Of a stretch of DNA of 64,000 nt, positions 5,217 through 42,900 are shown in pieces. A program made the position numbers and the translations under genes. Source of the stretch: Flaviramulus basaltis. GTDB lineage: Bacteria; Bacteroidota; Bacteroidia; Flavobacteriales; Flavobacteriaceae. The DNA is taken from the NCBI RefSeq assembly GCF_900114265.1, contig NZ_FPKV01000001.1, positions 558,001 through 622,000 of the forward strand, written 5' to 3'. Every line of letters starts with the position of its first letter. Positions within the stretch are counted from its first letter, which is position 1. The notes under the pieces are model-generated. The model did no database searches, was not told where the DNA came from, and saw only the letters and a program-made list of their open reading frames with translations.

Positions 5217-5639
5217 GTGACTATTGAAGATATCCAAAACGAAATTATAGATGAATTCTCAATGTTTGAAGATTGGGAAGAACGTTACCAATATATGATT
5301 GATTTAGGGAAAGATTTACCCCTAATTAACGACCAATACAAAACTGAAAGCAACATTATAAAAGGTTGCCAAAGTAAAGTTTGGGTACATGCCGAAATGA
5401 AAGATGATAAAATAGAATTTACTGCGGATAGTGATGCAATTATCACCAAAGGTATTATAGCTATTTTAATTCGTGCATTTTCAAATCAGCACCCAAAAGA
5501 TATTATTGATGCGAATACCGATTTTATTGATAAAATTGGGCTTAAAGAACATTTATCTCCAACACGAGCTAATGGCTTAGTAAGTATGATAAAACAACTT
5601 AAAATGTATGCTATAGCATACCAAACACAATTAAAATAA
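5217..5639 (+). CDS. sufE: SufE, sulfur acceptor for SufS
   Basis: SufE takes the persulfide sulfur from SufS and delivers it to the SufBCD scaffold. The acceptor cysteine is C51 in IIKGCQSKVW when the GTG at 5217 is used, which matches the E. coli numbering. The frame is open from a TTG at 5184, but residues before MTIEDIQNEI do not resemble SufE and the promoter lies there. GTG at 5211 is the alternative start. The protein is 140 residues, normal for the family. Its stop codon overlaps the next start by one base (TAATG), so translation with the DUF59 gene is probably coupled. Confidence 0.93.
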   Translation: MTIEDIQNEIIDEFSMFEDWEERYQYMIDLGKDLPLINDQYKTESNIIKGCQSKVWVHAEMKDDKIEFTADSDAIITKGIIAILIRAFSNQHPKDIIDANTDFIDKIGLKEHLSPTRANGLVSMIKQLKMYAIAYQTQLK

Positions 5640-5965
5640 TGAGCGATACAACAATAGATACTACCGAATTAGGTGAAAAAATAGTAAACGTTCTTAAAAC
5701 GATTTACGATCCAGAAATACCTGTAGACATTTACGAATTGGGGTTAATTTACGACGTATTTGTAAATGAAGATTACGATGTAAAAATATTAATGACATTA
5801 ACAACTCCTAACTGCCCTGTTGCCGAAACATTACCACTAGAAGTTGAAGAAAAAGTAAAATCGCTTAACGCTGTAAATAGTGCTGAAGTAGAAATTACTT
5901 TCGATCCGCCATGGACGCAAGAATTAATGAGTGAAGAAGCAAAGTTAGAGTTAGGAATGCTTTAA
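5639..5965 (+). CDS. sufT: SufT-like Fe-S assembly protein (DUF59/MIP18 family)
   Basis: Proteins of this family help in Fe-S cluster maturation or delivery in the cytoplasm. The 108-residue sequence carries the diagnostic YDPEIPVDIYELGLIYDV (residues about 23-40), the TTPNCPVAETLP segment with conserved C59, and the DPPWTQELMSEEAKLELGML C-terminus typical of the SUF-linked subgroup. It starts within the sufE stop codon and is followed by the DUF2480 gene after 7 bases, a tight operon. The symbol sufT is by family resemblance. Confidence 0.9.
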   Translation: MSDTTIDTTELGEKIVNVLKTIYDPEIPVDIYELGLIYDVFVNEDYDVKILMTLTTPNCPVAETLPLEVEEKVKSLNAVNSAEVEITFDPPWTQELMSEEAKLELGML

Positions 5966-5972
5966 TTTATTT

Positions 5973-6476
5973 ATGCAAGACGAAATTATAAATCGCGTAG
6001 CGAATAGCAAATTAGTTACTTTAAATCTTGAGGATTATTATCCTGAAGGAAGGCGTGTATTGTTTGATATTAAAGACTGGCTTTTTGAAGGTTTTGTATT
6101 GCGCGAAAAAGATTTTAGAAATCAAGTATCAGAATACGATTGGTCTCAATATAAAGGTAGCTATATAGCATTAACTTGTAGTAGTGATGCGATAATTCCT
6201 GGATGGGCTTTTATGCTTTTATCTATTCAACTAGAGCCTTATGTTAAAAAGACAATTATTGGCAATCTAGAAGCTCTAGAAACGTCTATATATCAAGATG
6301 TTTTAAATGATTTGGATGTAAGCACTTTTAAAGACAAACCTATTATCATAAAAGGCTGTTCAAAAAAACCTGTACCACAAAATGCCTATATCATGCTTGC
6401 AACAAAATTAAAACCTGTTGCTAGATCTATCATGTATGGAGAAGCGTGTTCTTCTGTTCCGCTGTTTAAAAAATAA
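5973..6476 (+). CDS. DUF2480 family protein
   Basis: This 167-residue cytoplasmic protein matches the DUF2480 family found next to suf genes in Bacteroidota. Recognisable parts are LNLEDYYPEGRRVLFDIKDW (residues about 18-37), SSDAIIPGWAFMLL in the middle, and a C-terminus with IKGCSKKPVP and GEACSSVP, each with a cysteine that could serve in redox or metal chemistry. Its function is unknown. Its 7-base spacing after sufT and constant company with suf genes suggest a role in Fe-S metabolism; that is inference. Confidence 0.88.
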   Translation: MQDEIINRVANSKLVTLNLEDYYPEGRRVLFDIKDWLFEGFVLREKDFRNQVSEYDWSQYKGSYIALTCSSDAIIPGWAFMLLSIQLEPYVKKTIIGNLEALETSIYQDVLNDLDVSTFKDKPIIIKGCSKKPVPQNAYIMLATKLKPVARSIMYGEACSSVPLFKK

Positions 6477-6577
6477 ATAATTTTTACTGTTTTTATTGTG
6501 ACTTAATTGCAAAAAAGGGTCTCAATAATAATCAACTTTGTGAATATAAATCATCATTTTTGAAAGAAAAATTGACT

Positions 6578-6585
6578 TATATTTG
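6578..6585 (+). promoter_or_regulatory. -7 promoter element for the DUF3078 gene
   Basis: TATATTTG is an exact TAnnTTTG match. The nearest TTTG upstream (6559-6562) is only 15 bases away, so the -33 element is weak. The predicted leader is about 20 bases, before ATG at 6613. Confidence 0.5.
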
Positions 6586-6612
6586 CACGCATTTTATTAA
6601 AAAATCATAAAA

Positions 6613-7557
6613 ATGAAAAAAACCTTATTATTATTCGCATTTATTATCGGAATCGCTTCGATGAACGCTCAAACTAAAGAAGAATTACATGCTCAAAAAG
6701 CGGAAAAACAAGCCATAGCAAATGCTGCTCAAGCTGAAGCTAACGCTTTACAAGCTCAAATTGATGCTTTACCAGGCTGGAGAAAAGGTGCATTTGGTAC
6801 TATTGGAGGAAGCATTTCTAACTTTAACAATTGGTATTCACAAGGTGCTCCAAATAACTCATCAGGTAATATTGGCTTTACTTTTAACGGTTATGCTAAT
6901 TTAATTGAAGATAAATTTTTCTGGAGAAACTCATTAAACACGAATTTAAACTGGGTAAAATTAGACAATAAAGATAATCCTGATGATGACGATAGTTTTA
7001 AACCAACAACAGATGTATTTAATATTTCGTCTTTATATGGTAGAAACCTTACTAAAACATTAGCTATTTCTAGTTTAATGGAATACAGAACAACATTATT
7101 AAACAACTTTAACGATCCTGGGTATTTAGATTTAGGTGTTGGTGCGACTTGGACACCAATTGAAAACTTAATAGTTGTTATTCACCCATTAAACTACAAC
7201 TTTGTTTTTGCTGATAATGATGCTATTTTTCAATCCTCTTTAGGTGCTAAAATTGTTGCAGATTACACTAGACAAATTGGTGCTATAAATTTTAAAACTA
7301 ATTTTTCAACCTTCCAAAGCTATGAAAGTGGTGATTTATCAAACTTTACATGGACTAACTCTTTTGGATATACATTATGGAAAATGATTGGTGTTGGTTT
7401 TGATTTTGGTTTAAGAAGTAACAAACAAGAAGCTTTAAAATATGCTTTAGGGCAGTTTGACCCAGTAGCAGTTCCTGCTCAAACTGAGCCTACATTTGAT
7501 AATGTGGATAATAAATTACAAACTTATTACACTGTTGGATTAAGCTATAAGTTTTAA
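6613..7557 (+). CDS. DUF3078 outer-membrane beta-barrel protein
   Basis: The protein has a clear signal peptide (MKKTLLLFAFIIGIASMNAQ, cleavage after residue 20). An alanine- and glutamine-rich helical segment follows (about 21-53) that could form a coiled coil. Then comes a series of amphipathic beta-strands ending in an aromatic terminus (VGLSYKF), as expected of an outer-membrane barrel. The start GWRKGAFGTIGGSISNFNNWYSQG fits DUF3078. Function is unknown. It has its own promoter and ends at a bidirectional terminator shared with the opposite gene. Confidence 0.85.
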   Translation: MKKTLLLFAFIIGIASMNAQTKEELHAQKAEKQAIANAAQAEANALQAQIDALPGWRKGAFGTIGGSISNFNNWYSQGAPNNSSGNIGFTFNGYANLIEDKFFWRNSLNTNLNWVKLDNKDNPDDDDSFKPTTDVFNISSLYGRNLTKTLAISSLMEYRTTLLNNFNDPGYLDLGVGATWTPIENLIVVIHPLNYNFVFADNDAIFQSSLGAKIVADYTRQIGAINFKTNFSTFQSYESGDLSNFTWTNSFGYTLWKMIGVGFDFGLRSNKQEALKYALGQFDPVAVPAQTEPTFDNVDNKLQTYYTVGLSYKF

Positions 7558-7612: not shown

Positions 7613-9919
7613 TTACTCTGTTCCTTTAAAATCCTTAGTTTTATTCTTTTTACTAAACAGTCTTTTAAAAAACCCATCTCTCTTTTCTGGCTCACAATTT
7701 AAATCTTCTAAAACCTTTACTGTAGGACTTTCAAATTTAGATTTAGTAATGTTATTAAAGCTGCTGTCTGTATTTAGTTTTTGGTAAAATTTCGCAAAAA
7801 TTGGTAGTGCAGAATTTGCTCCTTGTCCTAAACCTGTTGTTCTAAAACCAATGGCTTGATTATCGTTACCAACCCAAGTAACTGTTACCAAATTGGGAGT
7901 TAAGGCAACAAACCAACCATCTTTATTGTCTTGTGTAGTCCCTGTTTTTCCTGCTATATCATTAGTAAGATTATAAGTAAATCTTAACCTTGAAGCTGTA
8001 CCTGAATTTACTGTAGATTTCATAATTTGTAGCATCACCTGTCTTGTATAATCAGTAAAAGCTTCATCTTTTTTAATTTGAGGTTTGAATGAAGCAATAA
8101 TATTACCCTTTTTATCTTCAATTTTGGTAATACAATATGGCATTACAGCATGACCTTTATTAAGAAAACTCGCATAAGCCCCTGTTAATTCTTTCAAATT
8201 TATTTCGGCAACTCCCAAAGCTAATGATGGCTGATTGGGTAATTCTTTAGAAATCCCCATTTTTTTCGCCTGTTCTAAAACTTTAGGAATTCCAACTTCA
8301 TTTAAAACTTTAACTGCTATGGTATTTATAGAATTACTTAATGCAGTCTCTAAATTATAATTTAAATAAGAATTTTCTTCATTGCTACCAGAATTACTTG
8401 GTGTCCAATTATCATAGTTTTTATACGTTACTTCACCCAAAGAAAAATAAGTACAAGGATTCATTCCATTTTCAATAGCCGCTGTATACACAAAAGGTTT
8501 AAAAGTAGAGCCAACTTGTCTTTCGCTTTGCGATACATGATCGTATTTAAAATACCTATAATCAATACCTCCTATATAAGTTTTTATTGCTCCCGTTTTA
8601 GGCTCTATAGACAACATTCCTGTATTTAAAAACTTTAAATAATACGATAAACTATCAATAGTAGACATGTTTTGAATGGTATCCCCTTTCCAATTAAAAA
8701 GTTCAATTTCATTTTTAAGTAATAGTGAATCCTTAATTTGCTTATCGGCTAAACCTTGTTTTTTATAAAATTTATATTTGTTCAGACTTTTAATAGCAGT
8801 TTCAAATATTTGTCCGTTAGTTTTCCAAGGTGTTTGTTTTCCAAAAGACGCTTCAAAATCACTTTGTAATTTATTAAGATGTTCTCTCATTGCAGTTTCT
8901 GCTAACTCCTGCATTTTGAAATCTAATGTGGTATGAACAATTAAACCATCTCTATATAAATCATAAGATTTGCCCTCATTTGTATTAATAGAATCTAATA
9001 TAACAGCTAATTCTTTTTTAACTTGTTCTCTAAAATACGGAGCAATACCAACATCATGATTAAAGGAACGATAATCTAAAACCAAATCTTGATTTTTATA
9101 AAACTCAAGCGAATCTTTTGAAAGGTATTCATATTTAACCATTTGATTAAAAACCACATCACGCCTGTCTTTACTGCGCTGTAAGTGTAATCTCGGATTA
9201 AAATAATTATTAGCCTTTAAAGTTCCTATTAAAGCAGCAGCTTCAGATCTTGTTAAATCATTCGTCGTTTTATTGAAGAATTTTTGCGCTGCACTTTCAA
9301 TCCCATAAGTGTTATCAGGAAACGTAACCGTGTTGAAGTAAAGCGTTAAAATTTCTTTTTTCGAATAGATTTCTTCTATCCGCTTAGCAATTATAGATTC
9401 TTTAAACTTATTGATTAGCATCCCAAAAACGGGGTAATCTTTTCGTCCAAATAAGTTTTTGGCTAATTGAAGTGTAATGGTGCTTCCTCCACCGGCAGAT
9501 TTATCTTGAAGAATAATATTTTTAAAAAAAACTCGTGCTAAACTTACATTATCAATGCCATCATGCTCATAAAAACGAGCATCTTCTGTAGCAATTAGGG
9601 CATCAATTAAGTGTTGAGGAAATTTATCGAAAGTTAGAGGTTGCCTATCATAAATATAATACTTACCAATTAAAGCACCATCTTTATCTAAAACCTGTGT
9701 AGCTTGTTCTTGTTTTATGGAACTTAAATCTTCCTTTGATGGTAACTTACCAAATAGTCCTAAATAAATACTAAAATATAATCCTATAAAAAAAACAAAA
9801 ACAGATACTCCAAAAATCAATCCCCATTTTACCCATTTTATCTTCAAAACTCTAAATAGCCAAATAAAAAAAGGCATATTCTTAAGTTTATCTAGCTGAA
9901 TATTATTCATTATCTTCAT
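7613..9919 (-). CDS. Bifunctional penicillin-binding protein 1A family (glycosyltransferase/transpeptidase)
   Basis: This enzyme polymerises lipid II and cross-links peptidoglycan on the outer face of the inner membrane. One membrane helix lies at about residues 30-55. The GT51 domain contains TEDARFYEHDG (catalytic E112) and KEILTLYFN (about 188-196). The transpeptidase domain has STFK (S471 nucleophile, K474), SNS (528-530) and KTGT (658-661), so both activities look intact. The length of 768 suits class A PBPs. Its start overlaps the hflX stop by 17 bases (8 if the ATG at 9910 is used), implying one transcript with hflX. The common name in this phylum is PBP1A or PbpA. Confidence 0.95.
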   Translation of the reverse strand: MKIMNNIQLDKLKNMPFFIWLFRVLKIKWVKWGLIFGVSVFVFFIGLYFSIYLGLFGKLPSKEDLSSIKQEQATQVLDKDGALIGKYYIYDRQPLTFDKFPQHLIDALIATEDARFYEHDGIDNVSLARVFFKNIILQDKSAGGGSTITLQLAKNLFGRKDYPVFGMLINKFKESIIAKRIEEIYSKKEILTLYFNTVTFPDNTYGIESAAQKFFNKTTNDLTRSEAAALIGTLKANNYFNPRLHLQRSKDRRDVVFNQMVKYEYLSKDSLEFYKNQDLVLDYRSFNHDVGIAPYFREQVKKELAVILDSINTNEGKSYDLYRDGLIVHTTLDFKMQELAETAMREHLNKLQSDFEASFGKQTPWKTNGQIFETAIKSLNKYKFYKKQGLADKQIKDSLLLKNEIELFNWKGDTIQNMSTIDSLSYYLKFLNTGMLSIEPKTGAIKTYIGGIDYRYFKYDHVSQSERQVGSTFKPFVYTAAIENGMNPCTYFSLGEVTYKNYDNWTPSNSGSNEENSYLNYNLETALSNSINTIAVKVLNEVGIPKVLEQAKKMGISKELPNQPSLALGVAEINLKELTGAYASFLNKGHAVMPYCITKIEDKKGNIIASFKPQIKKDEAFTDYTRQVMLQIMKSTVNSGTASRLRFTYNLTNDIAGKTGTTQDNKDGWFVALTPNLVTVTWVGNDNQAIGFRTTGLGQGANSALPIFAKFYQKLNTDSSFNNITKSKFESPTVKVLEDLNCEPEKRDGFFKRLFSKKNKTKDFKGTE

Positions 9920-11114
9920 AATCTGGATACAGAAAATGATTGTAAGGAAAACGAGTTACATGAATTTCTCTAACTTCATCATAAACACGTTTTTTAAAGT
10001 CTTCTAAATTTTCTTTATTTAATGCCGAAATAAATAAAGCATTATTGCCTACTTTACTCATCCATGTACTTTTCCATTCCTCTAAAGAGTAATGTCTTTC
10101 TGTTCTTTCTGTTTCTAAATCGTCATCATCTAAAGGTTCTGCTTCGTAAGCATCAATTTTATTGAAAACCATAATAGTTGGCTTATCACCACTTTTTATT
10201 TCTCCTAAAACTTTCTCTACAGAAGCAATGTGTTCTTCAAAATTAGGGTGTGAAATATCTACAACGTGCAGCAATAAATCGGCTTCACGAACCTCATCAA
10301 GTGTACTTTTAAAACTATCTACCAATTGAGTTGGTAATTTTCTAATAAACCCTACGGTATCACTTAATAAAAAGGGTAAGTTTTGAATAACCACCTTTCT
10401 AACCGTAGTGTCTAATGTTGCAAACAACTTATTTTCGGCAAAAACATCGCTTTTGCTTATCACGTTCATTAAAGTAGATTTTCCAACGTTTGTATAACCA
10501 ACTAATGCCACACGAACCATTTTACCACGGTTACCACGTTGTACAGCCATTTGTTTGTCAATAGTTTTTATACGCTCTTTTAAAAGGGATATTTTATCAC
10601 GTACAATACGTCTATCTGTTTCTATCTCGGTTTCACCAGGTCCGCGCATACCAATACCACCTTTTTGGCGCTCAAGGTGTGTCCACATACCTCTTAATCG
10701 AGGCAATAAATATTCGCATTGTGCTAATTCTACTTGCGTTCTCGCATAGCTAGTTTGTGCACGTTGAGCAAAAATATCTAGTATTAAATTGGTTCTATCT
10801 AATACTTTAACGTTAAGAATTTTACTAATATTTCGTTCTTGGGCCGATGATAATTCATCATCAAAAATTGCCGTACCAATATCATTATCTTCAATAAATT
10901 GGCGAACTTCTTCCATTTTACCTGTTCCTATAAATGTTTTAGGATTTGGCATGTCCATTTTTTGTGTAAAACGTTTCACCGCATAACCACCTGCAGTAAA
11001 GGTTAAAAACTCCAACTCATCTAAATATTCTTTAGATTTTACTTCGTCTTGATCTTTTGTTATAACGCCTATTAAAACTGCTTTCTCTAAAGCAATATCT
11101 TTCTTTTCAATCAT
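9903..11114 (-). CDS. hflX: GTPase HflX
   Basis: HflX is a ribosome-associated GTPase that splits or rescues stalled ribosomes after stress. The N-terminal HflX domain includes NPKTFIGTGKMEE, and the linker has GPGETEIETDRR (residues about 158-169). The G domain follows with G1 GYTNVGKS (206-213), G3 DTVG (252-255) and G4 NKID (318-321). The 403-residue length is normal. A -7 element sits four bases before the ATG, so the mRNA is probably leaderless. The gene overlaps the downstream PBP gene. Confidence 0.95.
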   Translation of the reverse strand: MIEKKDIALEKAVLIGVITKDQDEVKSKEYLDELEFLTFTAGGYAVKRFTQKMDMPNPKTFIGTGKMEEVRQFIEDNDIGTAIFDDELSSAQERNISKILNVKVLDRTNLILDIFAQRAQTSYARTQVELAQCEYLLPRLRGMWTHLERQKGGIGMRGPGETEIETDRRIVRDKISLLKERIKTIDKQMAVQRGNRGKMVRVALVGYTNVGKSTLMNVISKSDVFAENKLFATLDTTVRKVVIQNLPFLLSDTVGFIRKLPTQLVDSFKSTLDEVREADLLLHVVDISHPNFEEHIASVEKVLGEIKSGDKPTIMVFNKIDAYEAEPLDDDDLETERTERHYSLEEWKSTWMSKVGNNALFISALNKENLEDFKKRVYDEVREIHVTRFPYNHFLYPDYEDNE

Positions 11115-11118
11115 GTTA

Positions 11119-11126
11119 CAAAGTTA
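11119..11126 (-). promoter_or_regulatory. -7 promoter element for hflX
   Basis: On the minus strand the site reads TAACTTTG, an exact TAnnTTTG match. It ends 4 bases before the hflX ATG (11114), so transcription would start at or inside the start codon. No clear -33 TTG was found. Confidence 0.45.
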
Positions 11127-11164
11127 AACATTTGTAGCTATTATTATTTTTATATTTTTAAGCC

Positions 11165-11172
11165 TATTTTTG
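11165..11172 (+). promoter_or_regulatory. -7 promoter element for the first EEP gene
   Basis: TATTTTTG matches TAnnTTTG and ends 4 bases before ATG 11177, which predicts a leaderless transcript. It is divergent from the hflX element 40 bases away. Confidence 0.45.
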
Positions 11173-11176
11173 ATTT

Positions 11177-12145
11177 ATGGCAAACACTTTTGACGATATT
11201 CCTGTTCGTGACAATATGCAAACTATTGCATTTTATAATCTTGAAAATTTATTTGATTTAGTAGATGATCAATATACCAATGACAATGATTTTTTACCAA
11301 CATCAGTTAAAAAATGGACTCCTAAACGGTATGATAATAAACTTAGAAAGTTAGGTTTTGCTATTTCTAATATTGGAAAACATGAAACTGGAAAACATCC
11401 TGCTATTGTTGGATTAGCTGAAGTTGAAAACGCAAAAGTTATTGAAGATTTAATAGCTTCAAAACATCTAGATGATTGTAATTATAATTATGTTCACTAT
11501 GATTCTTTAGATGAACGTGGTATTGATGTTGCCTTACTGTATGACACTAATGCTTTTGTAGTTTTACATTCTGAAGCTTTTACTGTAGAGTTATTTAACA
11601 ATCAAGGTCTCCCAGATTATACACGAGATATTTTGTTAGTATCAGGTTTGCTTGATGGCGAAAATGTAAATATTATTGTAAACCATTGGTCGTCTAGACG
11701 TGAGGGAGAAAAAGAAACCGAGCATAAGCGTATTGCTTCTTCTGATAAAGTTGGTGAGATTATTTCATCATTACGACTTGTAAATCCAGATGCCAAAATT
11801 ATTATTATTGGTGATTTTAATGACGACCCAAGTAGTAATAGTATAAAACGTTTGGTTGAAGCTTACAGTTTACACAACTCTATGGAAACTTTACGTTCTT
11901 ATAACAGAGGAACATCAAACCATAACCGCCAATGGAATTTATTTGATCAAATTTTAATTTCTTCCAACTTTTTTAAAACCTCAGATCATTTATTTGAATA
12001 TAGTTCTGCTAATATTTTTGATGAAGATTTCTTAAAACTTTTTAACGGAAAATATAAAGGCACGCCTTTTAGAACCTATGTTGGTAAAAAATACAAAGGT
12101 GGTTATAGCGATCATTTTCCTGTTTATGCTGTTTTTAAGAAGTGA
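11177..12145 (+). CDS. Endonuclease/exonuclease/phosphatase (EEP) family protein, no signal peptide
   Basis: This is a metal-dependent phosphodiesterase or nuclease of the DNase I-like EEP fold. Catalytic-site motifs are all present: N21 in FYNLENLFD, E82 in GLAEVEN, N169-H170 in VNHW, D213 and N215 in GDFND, and D312-H313 in SDHFPVY. The 322-residue protein lacks a signal peptide, so it should be cytoplasmic. Its nearest relative in the window is the exported EEP protein at 17011-18057, with which it shares all blocks. Its substrate could be DNA, RNA or a phosphoester and is not decided by the sequence. Confidence 0.9.
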   Translation: MANTFDDIPVRDNMQTIAFYNLENLFDLVDDQYTNDNDFLPTSVKKWTPKRYDNKLRKLGFAISNIGKHETGKHPAIVGLAEVENAKVIEDLIASKHLDDCNYNYVHYDSLDERGIDVALLYDTNAFVVLHSEAFTVELFNNQGLPDYTRDILLVSGLLDGENVNIIVNHWSSRREGEKETEHKRIASSDKVGEIISSLRLVNPDAKIIIIGDFNDDPSSNSIKRLVEAYSLHNSMETLRSYNRGTSNHNRQWNLFDQILISSNFFKTSDHLFEYSSANIFDEDFLKLFNGKYKGTPFRTYVGKKYKGGYSDHFPVYAVFKK

Positions 12146-37496: not shown

Positions 37497-38060
37497 ATGA
37501 CAAAAACTGAATTACGAAAAACATATAAAAACCTTCGTAATAAACTGTCTCAAAATCAAATTGAAGATTTTAGTTTAGCTATTTCTAACCAGCTTTTAAA
37601 ACTTCCTGTTTGGGATTATTCTTTTTATCATATTTTCCTTTCCATAGAAGAACACAATGAGGTTAATACCGATTATATTTTGAATATTTTATCGGGAAAA
37701 GACAAAAATATTCTTATTTCTAAAAGTGATTTTGAAACCGGTGATATGATTCATTATCTATTAACCGACAATACCGTTATTAAAAAAAATACGTATAATA
37801 TTCCTGAACCTATTGATGGTATTGAGATTACTGATGATAAAATTGAAGTTGTTTTTATTCCCCTTTTGGCATTTGACAAGCAAGGTAATCGTGTTGGTTA
37901 TGGTAAAGGGTTTTACGACCGTTTTTTATCTAAATGTAATACCGAAACTATTAAAATAGGCCTTTCTTTTTTTGAAGCTGAAAATATTATTTTAGATACT
38001 ATTGAAAGTGATGTGAAATTGGATTATTGTGTAACACCTAAAAAAGTTTATGAGTTTTAA
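37497..38060 (+). CDS. 5-Formyltetrahydrofolate cyclo-ligase
   Basis: This enzyme (5,10-methenyl-THF synthetase, YgfA/MTHFS family) uses ATP to recycle 5-formyl-THF. The N-terminus TKTELRKTYKNLRNKLS is typical, and the ATP/phosphate signature is VGYGKGFYDRFLSK (about 136-149), with VFIPLLAFDKQGNRVGYG before it. The 187-residue length is normal. It lies 6 bases after the aspartoacylase-like gene, ending the plus-strand run. It is convergent with the next gene, with a 3-base gap and no visible terminator. Confidence 0.95.
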   Translation: MTKTELRKTYKNLRNKLSQNQIEDFSLAISNQLLKLPVWDYSFYHIFLSIEEHNEVNTDYILNILSGKDKNILISKSDFETGDMIHYLLTDNTVIKKNTYNIPEPIDGIEITDDKIEVVFIPLLAFDKQGNRVGYGKGFYDRFLSKCNTETIKIGLSFFEAENIILDTIESDVKLDYCVTPKKVYEF

Positions 38061-38063
38061 TTA

Positions 38064-39947
38064 TTATTGGCAGCTTTCACAATACGTTTCCCGTAAATAC
38101 TCATCTTCCAATAGCTGAAAAGTTACTCCACCAGCATCTATATAATTAAATAACTTACAAAAACGCTCCGCATTCACGTTAATGGCATTAAGCATCACTG
38201 TTCTGTAATTAGGATCTTTTGTAAGTTGTTTGTTAATAATTGTTAAGTTCAAATAATAAAATAACAAATCTTCATCAATATCAATGCTCCTTGCTTTACT
38301 TTCAAGCAAGTCTATTGCTAACTTATCATTACTATAGTAACTAAAAAACTGAGCCAAGCTTAAATAATCGTAATCAGTTAAAGTTAACTTTTTATAACTT
38401 TTATTTATTAATTCGACCGATTTATCTTTATTATCAAAATCTCTGTTTTTCATAAATTTTTCACAAATAATCATGTGAAAATTTACAATCATTTTTAAAA
38501 TCAAAGATTTATCTATGTCATATTTTTTTAACAAATTAATCTCTCTTAATAATTCAACATCATCTATATCTATAGCATTAGAACTCCAAAGCTTAATTTT
38601 TACAGCTACTAAATTGTATTTAATCTCTCCAGCTTTTGGTACAAGCTTTTCAATTTCTAATAACTCATTATATGACACTAATGCTTGCCTTTCATCTAAC
38701 ATATACCTAAAAGCAGCATTTTTGTTCATTATTTTAGCAAATATTTCCTTTTTAGGTATCTCCATTTTTTGCAAAATATGTAAAGATGTTTCCTCGAACT
38801 TAAGCTTTTCGAAAATTGAGTTTTGAATTTCTTTAGCGTTTTCTAAATTATAAACCTCTATTGCCGAGTTAAATCGCTTTAAAAGCACATCTGCCATTTC
38901 ACTGCTATACTTATCCTTTTTAACTAGTTCTAATTCTACAACAGCTTTTCTGTGGTTTTTAAAAATAGGCTCCATTTGCTTAGATATACTTCCTGCTATT
39001 TTTTCTTTAATTTCATTTTTAGTTAGTAATGACAAGTATTTATATGGCGTATTTTCAATATCATTAAACAATTCTACCCAGTTCTCTAAACTAGAAACAT
39101 TAGTCTCAATTGTTGGCTTTTGAAAAGATTGTAAAGCGGCTACAATACTTTTACCTCGTAGCTTTTGCAATTCTATGTTCCTACTTTCAATCCCTTCTAT
39201 AGAAGAATAGGCTTTAATATTTATAGCTTTAATATTAAAATCTGTTAATTTTAGAGAATCATAAATTGGTTTTATATCAGCCTGAGAATACTCAGATTTA
39301 TTCTTTTTAAAAGGGATTACAAACTTCAAGGTTTTACGCCTTATAAAATCACCTTCATTTTTGATAGATTTTATTTTTTTTGTACTATAAGTTAAGGAGT
39401 CTAAATACATACCCATATCCAACAAATCTGATTCATAAGAATCTAAATCATATAGCACGTTATAAAGGCACAAGTTTTTATTACCAAGAAATAAAATGTT
39501 ATATTCCAAATCTTTGTTAAGCAAACTAACAGGAACTTCACCAACGTTTACACTGTAGATATTATCACCTTTACTTTTTAATCCTTTTTTTAATGCTTCA
39601 GAATAAATTGGTTTAAGTAAATAACCCTTTATTTGAGTTTTCTCAATTTCTTCTAATTTACAATCATATCTATCTTTTGAAACGATATCAATAGCCAGTC
39701 CATCATCTTGATTTTGAAACAATAAATCAAACCAATGCTTATCATTTATTTCAAAATAAAGCGTTTTATTTTGTCTTATAATTGAAAACTTTACTTCAAC
39801 AGGTTTTTTGCTATACGTTTTTAAGCATTCTTTACAATTTTGTTTTCTATCACTATCTGAGAAAACAATATCGTAAGTGCTTTGAGAAGAAACAATTTTA
39901 ACCGAAAAGAGAATAAATAAAATTATAAAGAGGGATTTATCTTTCAT
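38064..39947 (-). CDS. Exported OmpA-like/CxxC protein, paralogue A (family not recognised)
   Basis: I do not recognise this family. The 627-residue protein has a signal peptide (to about residue 21, SSQ). Near the mature N-terminus is a CxxC (C38, C41), and at the extreme C-terminus another (C623, C626); C96, C160 and C597 complete seven cysteines shared by position with its neighbour. Residues about 205-275 look OmpA-like: LKFVIPFKKNKSEYSQADI, then INIKAYSSIEG and a RNIELQKLRGKSIVAAL helix. Residues about 320-600 are helical, perhaps TPR-like. No transmembrane helix follows the signal. It may be a periplasmic, peptidoglycan-linked protein with disulfides or bound metal; this is inference. 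Confidence 0.8.
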   Translation of the reverse strand: MKDKSLFIILFILFSVKIVSSQSTYDIVFSDSDRKQNCKECLKTYSKKPVEVKFSIIRQNKTLYFEINDKHWFDLLFQNQDDGLAIDIVSKDRYDCKLEEIEKTQIKGYLLKPIYSEALKKGLKSKGDNIYSVNVGEVPVSLLNKDLEYNILFLGNKNLCLYNVLYDLDSYESDLLDMGMYLDSLTYSTKKIKSIKNEGDFIRRKTLKFVIPFKKNKSEYSQADIKPIYDSLKLTDFNIKAINIKAYSSIEGIESRNIELQKLRGKSIVAALQSFQKPTIETNVSSLENWVELFNDIENTPYKYLSLLTKNEIKEKIAGSISKQMEPIFKNHRKAVVELELVKKDKYSSEMADVLLKRFNSAIEVYNLENAKEIQNSIFEKLKFEETSLHILQKMEIPKKEIFAKIMNKNAAFRYMLDERQALVSYNELLEIEKLVPKAGEIKYNLVAVKIKLWSSNAIDIDDVELLREINLLKKYDIDKSLILKMIVNFHMIICEKFMKNRDFDNKDKSVELINKSYKKLTLTDYDYLSLAQFFSYYSNDKLAIDLLESKARSIDIDEDLLFYYLNLTIINKQLTKDPNYRTVMLNAINVNAERFCKLFNYIDAGGVTFQLLEDEYLRETYCESCQ

Positions 39948-40149
39948 TTAATTGAGAGACATTAAATTATGGTTTAGTTGATATATAAAAATAACAAAAA
40001 TTATTGAGGTAATAAATACGTAGAAGTACTTATTTTTAAATCACTATTCATTGAATAACACCTTCTTAATTAATGCATTAAATCCCTTACCTATAGCTAT
40101 ATAGATAATATTAAAATGAATCTGAAAAAACTAAAATATTTGCCTCCAT

Positions 40150-40174
40150 AAAAAAGGAAGCCACTAAAAGGCTT
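40150..40174 (-). terminator. Probable terminator after paralogue B
   Basis: AAGCC (40158-40162) pairs with GGCTT (40170-40174). On the minus strand the hairpin is followed by CCTTTTTTAT. The stem is short, so confidence is moderate. Confidence 0.5.
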
Positions 40175-40201
40175 ATTAAATTTGTTTAGTCTGGTTTTAA
40201 T

Positions 40202-42094
40202 TTACTGCTCAGTATTACAACTTTCACAGTACGTTTCTCTTAAATACGCATCTTCTAATAGCTGAAATGTTACGCCTCCTTTTTCAATTGAATTGAATAA
40301 TTTACAATAGCGCTCTTTATTCATATTAATAGCATTTAGCATAATTATTCTGTAATTAGAATCGTGAGTTAAATTTCTATTAACTAGAGTTAAATTTAAA
40401 TAGTAGAATAATAAATCTTCATCAATATCTATACTTTTAGCTTTATTTTCTAAAAGTTTTACAGAAAAGCTTGGGTTTGCATAATAGCTAAAAAATTGAG
40501 CTAAGCTTAAATAATCGTAATCTGATAATGGAAATTCTTTATAATTATTGTTAATGTATGAAACCGACTTGTCTTTATTAACATAATCTCTTTTTCGCAT
40601 TAAATTTTCGGCTTTAATAACATGAAAATTCACCATCATTCTTGAAATAAGTGAGGCCTCAATACCATAGTTTTTCAAAGCATTTATTTCGTTTTTTAAT
40701 TTTGTTTCATCAACATCAATAGCATTAAAACGCCAAAGTTTTATTTTTATAGCAGCTATATTATACTTCACCTCTCCATCTTTAGGTACTAATTTTTCTA
40801 AATCTAATAATGCATTATAAACAATTAAACCATCTCTAATATTTAACATATATCTATAAGCAGAGTTCTTGTTAAATATTTTTGCAAACTTTACTTGTTT
40901 TGGTATTTGCATTTTTCTTAAAAAATCTGGAGAAACCTCTTTTTCTTTAAGTTTTTCAAAAATTGAATTTTGTATTTCTCTTGCTTCTTTTAGATTTTCT
41001 TCTCCTATTGCTGAATTAAACTTAGTTAATAACTCATCTGCAGACATACTTTTGTACTTATCTTTCTTTTCTAATTCTAATTCTAAAACGGCTTTTCTAT
41101 GCTTCGTTAAAATTGGTTCTATTTCATTGGAAAGATCCCCTACAAGTTTTGCTTTAACTTCCTCTTTACTTAATTCTGCTAAACTTTCATATTTAGTCCC
41201 GTTAATATCATTTAAAAATTCTACCCAATTTTCGGAAGATGAAATACTAGTTCTTATAGTTGGTTTTTGAAAGGCTTGTAATGCTTTAACTATACTATTT
41301 GCGCGTTGTTCTTGCAACTCAATATTACGCTCTAAACGGCCTTCAATAGATGAATAGGCTCTTATATTTATTGCTTTTATATTAAAATCGGTTAATCTTA
41401 AAGAATCGTAAATAGGTTTTATATCCTCCTGAGAGTATTCTGCTTTATTTTTTTTAAAGGGTATTTTGAATTTTAAAGTTTTGTTTTTTAATATGTATCC
41501 TTCTTTCGCTGATACTTTTATTTGTTTTGCATCATAAGTTAAAGAGTCTAAATACATCCCCATATCTAACAAATCCCATGGGTAAGATTCTAAGTCATAA
41601 ATAACATAATAATTACATAAATTCTTATTGCTTAAGAATAGAATATTGTATTCTAATTCGTCATTCAAAAAAGCTTCTGGAACTCTGCCAACATGTACTC
41701 TGTATATATTTTCTCCGTTAGGTTTTAATCCACTTTTTAGCTTCTGTGAATAAACAGGCTTTAATAGTAACCCTCTAATTTGTGTATCATTAACATATTC
41801 ATATTCACAAGAATATCTATCTTTCACAACAACGTCAACAGCAATACCATCTCCTGCATTTTTAAACAATAAATTGAACCATTTTTTATCGTTTACTTCA
41901 AAATAAAGGTTGTCTTTTTCTCGCTTAATTGAAAATTGAACTTCTTTTGGTTTTTGGTTAAATATTTGAAAACATTGCTGACATTTTTGTTCTCTATCAT
42001 TCCGCGGAAAAATTATATCAAAAGTATTTTGAGAAAAAGTTATGTTTGAAACGAAGAATAAGAATGAAATTAAGAATAGAAATTTACCTTTCAT
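40202..42094 (-). CDS. Exported OmpA-like/CxxC protein, paralogue B (family not recognised)
   Basis: This is the tandem paralogue of the preceding entry; the two align over their full length with almost no gaps. ATG 42094 is chosen over an in-frame ATG at 42124 because it gives a normal signal peptide (MKGKFLFLISFLFFVSNITFS) and a 630-residue protein. The seven cysteines then fall at the same residue numbers as in paralogue A: 38, 41, 96, 160, 597, 623, 626. The OmpA-like segment (about 205-275) has LKFKIPFKKNKAEYSQEDI and RNIELQEQRANSIVKAL. The two genes are 254 bases apart, with a probable terminator between, so they are likely expressed separately. Confidence 0.82.
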   Translation of the reverse strand: MKGKFLFLISFLFFVSNITFSQNTFDIIFPRNDREQKCQQCFQIFNQKPKEVQFSIKREKDNLYFEVNDKKWFNLLFKNAGDGIAVDVVVKDRYSCEYEYVNDTQIRGLLLKPVYSQKLKSGLKPNGENIYRVHVGRVPEAFLNDELEYNILFLSNKNLCNYYVIYDLESYPWDLLDMGMYLDSLTYDAKQIKVSAKEGYILKNKTLKFKIPFKKNKAEYSQEDIKPIYDSLRLTDFNIKAINIRAYSSIEGRLERNIELQEQRANSIVKALQAFQKPTIRTSISSSENWVEFLNDINGTKYESLAELSKEEVKAKLVGDLSNEIEPILTKHRKAVLELELEKKDKYKSMSADELLTKFNSAIGEENLKEAREIQNSIFEKLKEKEVSPDFLRKMQIPKQVKFAKIFNKNSAYRYMLNIRDGLIVYNALLDLEKLVPKDGEVKYNIAAIKIKLWRFNAIDVDETKLKNEINALKNYGIEASLISRMMVNFHVIKAENLMRKRDYVNKDKSVSYINNNYKEFPLSDYDYLSLAQFFSYYANPSFSVKLLENKAKSIDIDEDLLFYYLNLTLVNRNLTHDSNYRIIMLNAINMNKERYCKLFNSIEKGGVTFQLLEDAYLRETYCESCNTEQ

Positions 42095-42178
42095 TAATTG
42101 AGGGTTTAAGTTAATGTCTTCCAAAAACTTAAATATAGCAAATACTATTAAAGTAGAAAATACTTACTTATACTTAGT

Positions 42179-42814
42179 TTAATTTATGCTTTCCTCTTTT
42201 TTAGAAAAAGCTTTTTTATTAAACACTATAAGCATTATAAACCCCGTACTAATTGCCATATCAGCTACATTAAATACAGGTTCGAAGAAATTAAAACGCT
42301 TGCCACCATATAAAGGAAACCACTGAGGCAAGTCTATTTCAAATAAAGGGAAATACAGCATATCTACAACCTTACCGTGTAATAAACCATCATAACCACC
42401 TGTATGTGGTAAAAAGGTAGCTACTTGGTTTGCGCTATCTTCAAACAAAATACCATAAAATACAGAGTCAATAATATTACCTAAAGCACCCGCAAATATT
42501 AATGCAATGGCAATAATTAACACTTTAGAACTTTGCTTTTTTGTAGTATCATAAAGCCAATACCCAATACCAAAAATAGCAACCACTCTAAATAAAGTTA
42601 GTACTACTTTTGCTGTTCTATCTGATATAAAAGACACAAAATCACTGATTTTTGTACCCCAAGCCATACCATCATTCTCAATAAAGTATATTTTAAACCA
42701 ACTAAAAACACTTATACTTTCATGAAGTGCAAAATGGGTTTTGATATAAATTTTACTAATCTGATCAATTAGCAAAATTAGAACGATAAGGATTATGGAT
42801 TTTTTTAATGACAT
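42179..42814 (-). CDS. lspA: Lipoprotein signal peptidase (signal peptidase II)
   Basis: LspA removes signal peptides from prolipoproteins in the inner membrane, which matters here because many window genes encode lipoproteins. Four membrane helices are visible. The catalytic aspartates are D116 (GALGNIIDSVFYG) and D185 (NVADMAISTG). At 211 residues it is longer than E. coli LspA (164); the extra residues lie between the two aspartates (about 120-175), as in other Bacteroidota. A terminator separates it from the upstream dksA-like/ileS unit. Confidence 0.95.
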   Translation of the reverse strand: MSLKKSIILIVLILLIDQISKIYIKTHFALHESISVFSWFKIYFIENDGMAWGTKISDFVSFISDRTAKVVLTLFRVVAIFGIGYWLYDTTKKQSSKVLIIAIALIFAGALGNIIDSVFYGILFEDSANQVATFLPHTGGYDGLLHGKVVDMLYFPLFEIDLPQWFPLYGGKRFNFFEPVFNVADMAISTGFIMLIVFNKKAFSKKEESIN

Positions 42815-42842
42815 TTAAAAGTATACTTCAAGATTATTTTCG

Positions 42843-42862
42843 ATTCCAGAATTTGCAGGAAT
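42843..42862. other. Short palindromic fragment upstream of lspA
   Basis: ATTCCAGAATTTGCAGGAAT has matching ends (ATTCC/GGAAT) and resembles pieces of palindromic spacer elements known from Flavobacteriaceae. It may be a remnant. Support is weak. Confidence 0.3.
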
Positions 42863-42869
42863 AACAAAT

Positions 42870-42900
42870 AAAAAACGCCTCGTTTTAAATCGAGACGTTT
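42870..42900 (-). terminator. Terminator after the dksA-like gene
   Basis: AAACGCCTCG (42873-42882) pairs with CGAGACGTTT (42891-42900) with one mismatch and an 8-base loop. On the minus strand a T6 run follows. Confidence 0.85.

Follow-up and report, generated by a model that had tools for sequence, protein, structure and literature searches.

Two tandem, putatively exported proteins of Flaviramulus basaltis with an OmpA-like domain, a TPR-like solenoid and conserved cysteines: tentative disulfide-closed scaffolds of the cell envelope

Several described proteins contain domains similar to those studied here. In Acinetobacter baumannii OmpA, Asp271 and Arg286 bind diaminopimelate, according to PMC5974059. 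In Bacteroidota, PG1058 is presented in PMC5053529 as a predicted lipoprotein that combines TPR, beta-propeller and regulatory-like domains with an OmpA domain at the C-terminus. LbcA (8sxf) is described as a protein with a spiral of TPRs that partners the protease CtpA. The window analysed here (the whole stretch of 64,000 nucleotides from the Flavobacteriaceae bacterium Flaviramulus basaltis) carries two tandem genes, P0002 and P0001, the products of which we compared with these proteins. The genes and the putative export signal are as follows:

40202..42094, minus strand: P0002, the upstream paralogue of the tandem pair (630 amino acids; relatives at 66 loci).
38064..39947, minus strand: P0001, the downstream paralogue (627 amino acids; 64% identity to P0002).
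42029..42094, minus strand: putative signal peptide of P0002 (residues 1-22, judged by eye).

The initial annotation described tandem, full-length paralogues with cysteines at residues 38, 41, 96, 160, 597, 623 and 626. Our analysis agrees on both counts: the 627- and 630-residue proteins lie on the same strand and share all seven positions, P0001 having an extra eighth cysteine at 495. They are the only two matches (E ≤0.001) in the whole 4.19 Mb genome. By eye, the N-terminus of each looks like a signal peptide that lacks a lipobox cysteine; in P0002 a lipobox is excluded because the first cysteine is residue 38.

We propose, as the likeliest but still tentative reading, to which we give slightly less than an even chance, that both genes encode soluble, disulfide-closed, non-lipidated scaffold proteins that are periplasmic (or exported). 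As prediction and comparison show, a beta domain at the N-terminus is followed in the same chain by an OmpA-like domain and then by a TPR-like solenoid. Judging from joint cysteine losses among relatives, a C38-C160 bond would close the N-terminal domain, while one cysteine of the C-terminal CxxC would bond C96 and the other C597, near the solenoid end, the bonds of C96 and C597 to the tail thereby closing the chain into a compact clamp. To judge from the fold, the solenoid would bind a protein or peptide partner. The pocket of the OmpA-like domain, in which the Arg is retained but the Asp gives way to a Ser with a Glu close by, might accept another ligand or hold diaminopimelate in a different way. 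The proposal predicts three disulfides and the loss of ordinary peptidoglycan binding.

The domain layout comes from an AlphaFold2 model of P0002 (mean predicted local distance difference test score, pLDDT, 88.5; predicted template modelling score, pTM, 0.83), the domain ends of P0001 being transferred by homology:

41606..41935, minus strand: N-terminal beta-rich domain of P0002, residues 54-163, containing C96 and C160 (model).
41066..41485, minus strand: OmpA-like domain of P0002, residues 204-343 (structure match and alignment).
38919..39338, minus strand: OmpA-like domain of P0001, residues 204-343 in the numbering shared with P0002 (ends by homology).
40220..41041, minus strand: TPR-like helical solenoid of P0002, residues 352-625 (model and fold match).

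The beta-rich domain, which C38 precedes, reached a pLDDT of 80.9 when folded alone. In that form it had no Foldseek match at E ≤1e-3, and its best Z score was 5.1, in a match list made up mainly of Ig-like and FnIII sandwiches, so that it has no clear counterpart in the PDB. The OmpA-like segment that had been placed at residues 205-275 is indeed present, but the fold alignment extends it to about 204-343: VIA-align superimposes these residues on 4rha_B with a Z score of 12.1 and a root-mean-square deviation (rmsd) of 2.6 over 118 residues, and the best Foldseek E value of the P0002 model to OmpA domains is 5.6e-4. The rest of the protein had been called helical, which is right for residues 352-625 but not for the beta-rich residues 54-163 of the model. 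Residues ~343-599 match TPR chains with VIA-align Z scores of up to 9.7, which common helical repeats attain as well, and the Pfam TPR models gave no match in the window proteins up to an E value of 1. Likewise, the resemblance to LbcA (Z 9.6, rmsd 3.9, 161 residues), which common helical repeats equal, is limited to the fold.

The cysteine pattern was followed in two alignments, and includes this feature:

40217..40228, minus strand: C-terminal CxxC of P0002, C623 and C626 (alignments).

In the close alignment, of 69 rows (P0002 with homologues that share 51-78% identity with it), 69 of the 630 positions show no variation when gaps are disregarded. This set includes six of the seven shared cysteines, so that cysteine conservation goes beyond chance. 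C38, C96, C160 and C597 occur in 69/69 rows, C623 in 68/69 and C626 in 66/69, the remainder being gaps from shortened matches; the three shortened rows (L010, L045, L059) do finish in YCENC. The seventh cysteine, C41, occurs in 60/69 rows and is otherwise Phe (six rows) or Tyr (three rows). The wide alignment has 167 rows, after exclusion of 14 loci that repeat or hold part of the gene (including L064), of open reading frames shorter than 480 amino acids and of identical sequences; its denominators vary with position. There, C38 is found in 159/162 rows, C96 in 133/165, C160 in 164/167, C597 in 163/166, C41 in 107/162 and the tail CxxC in 133/167, and in sixteen members the core holds exactly the six constant cysteines. 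Thus, of the seven cysteines taken to be invariant, C38, C96, C160, C597, C623 and C626 are constant but C41 is not, and the notion of two matching terminal CxxC pairs fails with it, C41 having been lost repeatedly (11 changes on the wide tree). This bears on another explanation, in which both terminal CxxC pairs would come together to make a site for a metal or cofactor, for which the presence of both pairs in both window proteins speaks. Such a site calls for both pairs to be conserved, and C41 is lost in 9/69 close rows and absent from 55/162 wider ones while the other cysteines mostly stay, which leaves this explanation highly improbable.

Four joint patterns in the wide alignment bear on which cysteines may pair. 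First, the 32 of 167 rows in which C96 is replaced have one cysteine after residue 600 in 30 cases, two in L185 and none in L090, and the 133 rows with C96 have two tail cysteines in 116 cases, three in 15 and one in 2. Second, in the latter two rows (L141 and L150), C597 and C626 are lost together. Third, L169 and L175 have other residues at both 38 and 160. Fourth, C169 and C606 (P0002 numbering) occur in the same 14 rows (L159-L161, L165 and L167-L176), 12 of which are 826-909 amino acids long; as far as sequence can tell, this couple is again a link from front to tail. The simplest pairing that the sequences suggest is C38 with C160, C96 with one tail cysteine and C597 with the other. Because C96 and C597 would each pair with one tail cysteine, the likely effect of the C-terminal CxxC is to staple the end of the solenoid to the N-terminal domain.

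The losses also bear on a thiol-redox protein, in which the C-terminal CxxC would be a redox-active pair. The retention of that motif in 133/167 rows is in keeping with such a role, which we nevertheless judge very unlikely: the tail cysteines are lost singly, each with a different distant cysteine (each loss being one event), and the CxxC sits at the solenoid end, outside any recognised redox domain.

The end-to-end disulfide bridge raised by the initial annotation fits the joint losses, but each of them is one event on the tree. Indeed, several observations weigh against the disulfide-closed scaffold. The 30 C96-less rows, L141/L150 and L169/L175 each lie on one side of a single branch. With just one event behind every joint loss, our confidence was lowered from an even chance to the tentative level given above; moreover, a test of the cysteine couples on independent pairs had no power. 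As for C38-C160, L090 has Ala at 38 and retains the cysteine at 160, and four rows are gapped at 38 with a cysteine at 160. The bond from C96 to the tail sits poorly with L185, where Ser stands at 96 and the tail CxxC is retained; neither L185 nor L090 agrees with the simplest pairing. The C96-less clade has additional cysteines at 449, 510 and often 569, for which no pairing was found, and C41, present in most close rows, has no partner in the proposed pairing. Finally, no widely recurring partner gene appeared among the neighbours listed for the 66 loci and for 26 loci of distant relatives, and the scaffold role is therefore taken from the fold alone.

The ligand site of the OmpA-like domain was compared by HMMER alignment, which places the family motif Tyr-Ser-Ser-(Ile/Val)-Glu-Gly on the Tyr/Phe-Thr-Asp motif of OmpA and PA0833. 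Position 249, the site of the diaminopimelate-binding Asp, is Ser in 164/167 rows, Pro in 3/167 and Asp in 0/167; Arg264 is kept in 159/167, and residue 251 is Glu in 153/167 and Asp in 7/167. The pair of Asp and Arg required of peptidoglycan-binding OmpA/Pal proteins is consequently not found in any row. Of the "peptidoglycan-binding-type" segment first described, the OmpA-like fold stands, but the binding type is doubtful because the Asp is replaced by Ser nearly throughout. An ordinary peptidoglycan anchor, in which the OmpA-like domain would bind diaminopimelate in the manner of OmpA or Pal, with the remaining chain as a spacer, has the fold and the retained Arg264 in its favour. The absence of Asp at position 249 makes it unlikely, as does the want of a membrane anchor of the OmpA/Pal type: the first cysteine, at residue 38, is no lipobox cysteine, and the secondary structure of the model has no strands forming an outer-membrane barrel. 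In sum, the window proteins share with OmpA C-terminal-like domains (Salmonella OmpA, 4rha; PA0833, 6jfw) the fold of residues 204-343, a conserved N-x2-L motif and the binding Arg, and differ from them in the Ser at the Asp site, in a Pfam score below the cut-off and in the mid-chain position of the domain, before the solenoid.

The combination of TPR and OmpA-like domains in a single Bacteroidota envelope protein recalls PorE/PG1058 as described in PMC5053529. A type IX secretion system component comparable to PorE would agree with these two domains, with the Bacteroidota host and with a weak similarity to the PorE OmpA domain 6top (profile E 0.069; Foldseek E 6e-3). We hold it to be quite improbable: compared with the PG1058 layout in PMC5053529, the domain order differs, with the OmpA-like domain in mid-chain, and both the beta-propeller (in the model) and the lipobox cysteine are missing. 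Furthermore, window-type proteins were found in only 26/149 genomes of the family.

Regarding named families, the profile searches and structure prediction that the initial annotation had suggested recovered the OmpA-like domain and matched no named family. Its statement that no named family has this layout is borne out in Pfam, NCBIfam, PHROGs and PADLOC, which hold no curated model naming the window proteins. In Pfam, the OmpA model PF00691 scored 14.3 and 20.5 bits for the window proteins, under the gathering score of 27.2 (E 0.052 for P0001), and the other names were at chance level. NCBIfam gave weak OmpA-lipoprotein models for P0002 only, PHROGs a single weak match to a PHROG of unknown function, and PADLOC no match for the window proteins. 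A PDB sequence search with P0001 alone returned one chance-level match (E 0.89), and one with the family profile matched OmpA domains. In the literature searched, no title or abstract opening names the family.

One search found relatives at 66 loci, all in Flavobacteriaceae where the family is given. In the window's family, 29/149 genomes match, three of them (G100, G045 and G017) through distant relatives only, which leaves 26/149 with the window type. In a draw across the phylum, a single-protein query matched 6/247 genomes, all in the window's class, which is Flavobacteriia in the NCBI taxonomy and Bacteroidia under GTDB, the scheme that the genome set follows. A class-wide profile search that scored three candidates per genome matched at least 212/396 genomes at E ≤1e-3, many of the matches covering the OmpA part only; weak matches over residues ~200-300 only are probably other OmpA domains and were excluded from use. 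The profile of the wider family, with two candidates scored per genome, matched at least 33/392 genomes of a phylum draw at 1e-12. These matches extend to the core in at least nine genomes, each belonging to the window's class, and outside that class they cover the CAP part only. The family is real and widespread, extends through the window's class and bears no curated name in the searched libraries; it is now defined by its sequence, predicted structure and cysteine pattern. It joins known domains with what would be an unusual closure, and is not a categorically new system.

The CAP part belongs to the distant relatives, which are mostly ~760-930 amino acids long and carry a CAP domain (PF00188) at the N-terminus (E 6e-13 to 3e-9 in L085-L088). 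Among 60 wider members drawn at random from 86, a CAP domain was found in 48, an OmpA match at E ≤0.01 in 24 and the NCBIfam YkwD model in 19. In contrast, CAP gave no match to the window proteins up to an E value of 1. L099, a protein of 631 amino acids from another family of the class, also lacks a CAP match; L100-L102 are similar to it in length (633-662 amino acids). A CAP-type query of 299 genomes from the window's family recovered four CAP-type genes, of which the G017 copy is broken; the wider-family profile added, in the phylum draw, a fifth genome with such a gene, G914. In most distant relatives scanned, the body seen in the window proteins sits behind a CAP domain. We put forward, with less assurance than the scaffold proposal and as a possibility that we rate clearly below even, that all these proteins are covalently closed envelope clamps. 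They would have a CAP or CAP-less head on a beta domain, and a solenoid end stapled to that head by disulfides, and their rebuilt diaminopimelate site, mostly Tyr-Ser-Ser-Ile/Val-Glu-Gly, would serve another ligand. The family ties CAP domains, the bacterial roles of which are to our knowledge poorly known, to an OmpA-like and solenoid body, and is of relevance to the biology of the Bacteroidota envelope.

The survey of gene neighbourhoods, also suggested by the initial annotation, found lspA beside the gene in 37/66 loci, as in the window. The other neighbours, among the 11 loci listed, are presumably rpoN/asnS, ligA or pnp/rpsO. Because the loci differ in this way, the genomic place looks inherited rather than indicative of a functional link. 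Among the neighbours listed for the 26 loci of distant relatives, we take a next-door gene shared by L194 and L195 to be transporter-like, and one a few genes off, common to L198 and L204, to be thioredoxin-like. Between the window genes lies the following feature:

40142..40174, minus strand: two terminator-like hairpins that overlap, in the gap between P0002 and P0001 (terminator scan).

Terminator-like sites number 5 on both strands of 37900-42900 vs 1.3 expected, and the hairpins between the paralogues may mean separate transcription. Other tandem pairs occur in L005, L010 and G757. On the tree, P0001 groups with copies from Wocania, Confluentibacter and Mariniflexile (support 92), which weakly suggests an old tandem duplication followed by losses.

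Some CAP-type relatives have particular gene structures and contexts. In L087:7104-9391, the gene is split in two frames, a CAP part of 214 amino acids and a remainder of 503. In L244, a CAP-like open reading frame (8299-8817, 173 amino acids) lies immediately upstream of a full CAP-type relative (8892-11336, 815 amino acids), as though from a duplication of the CAP part. An adjacent WYL regulator is shared by L086-L088 among the matches listed for the 26 loci; the CAP-type gene abuts a WYL-domain regulator in three of the five Flavobacteriaceae genomes examined in context (L086:5647-12450, L087:5378-14796 and L088:1-8967). RNA-repair genes lie nearby, namely RtcB and RlaP in L086, RtcB (by BLAST) in L087, and a polynucleotide kinase-phosphatase with a T4-type RNA ligase in L088; the L085 and L244 contexts have none of the WYL or RNA-repair genes. 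The WYL regulator of L087 shares one frame (5378-7096) with a PhyH dioxygenase domain. Lastly, in L090:9642-12941, a caspase-domain protein with many TPRs stands beside a very divergent relative, the matches of which are OmpA (E 2.5e-4) and CAP at E 0.11 only.

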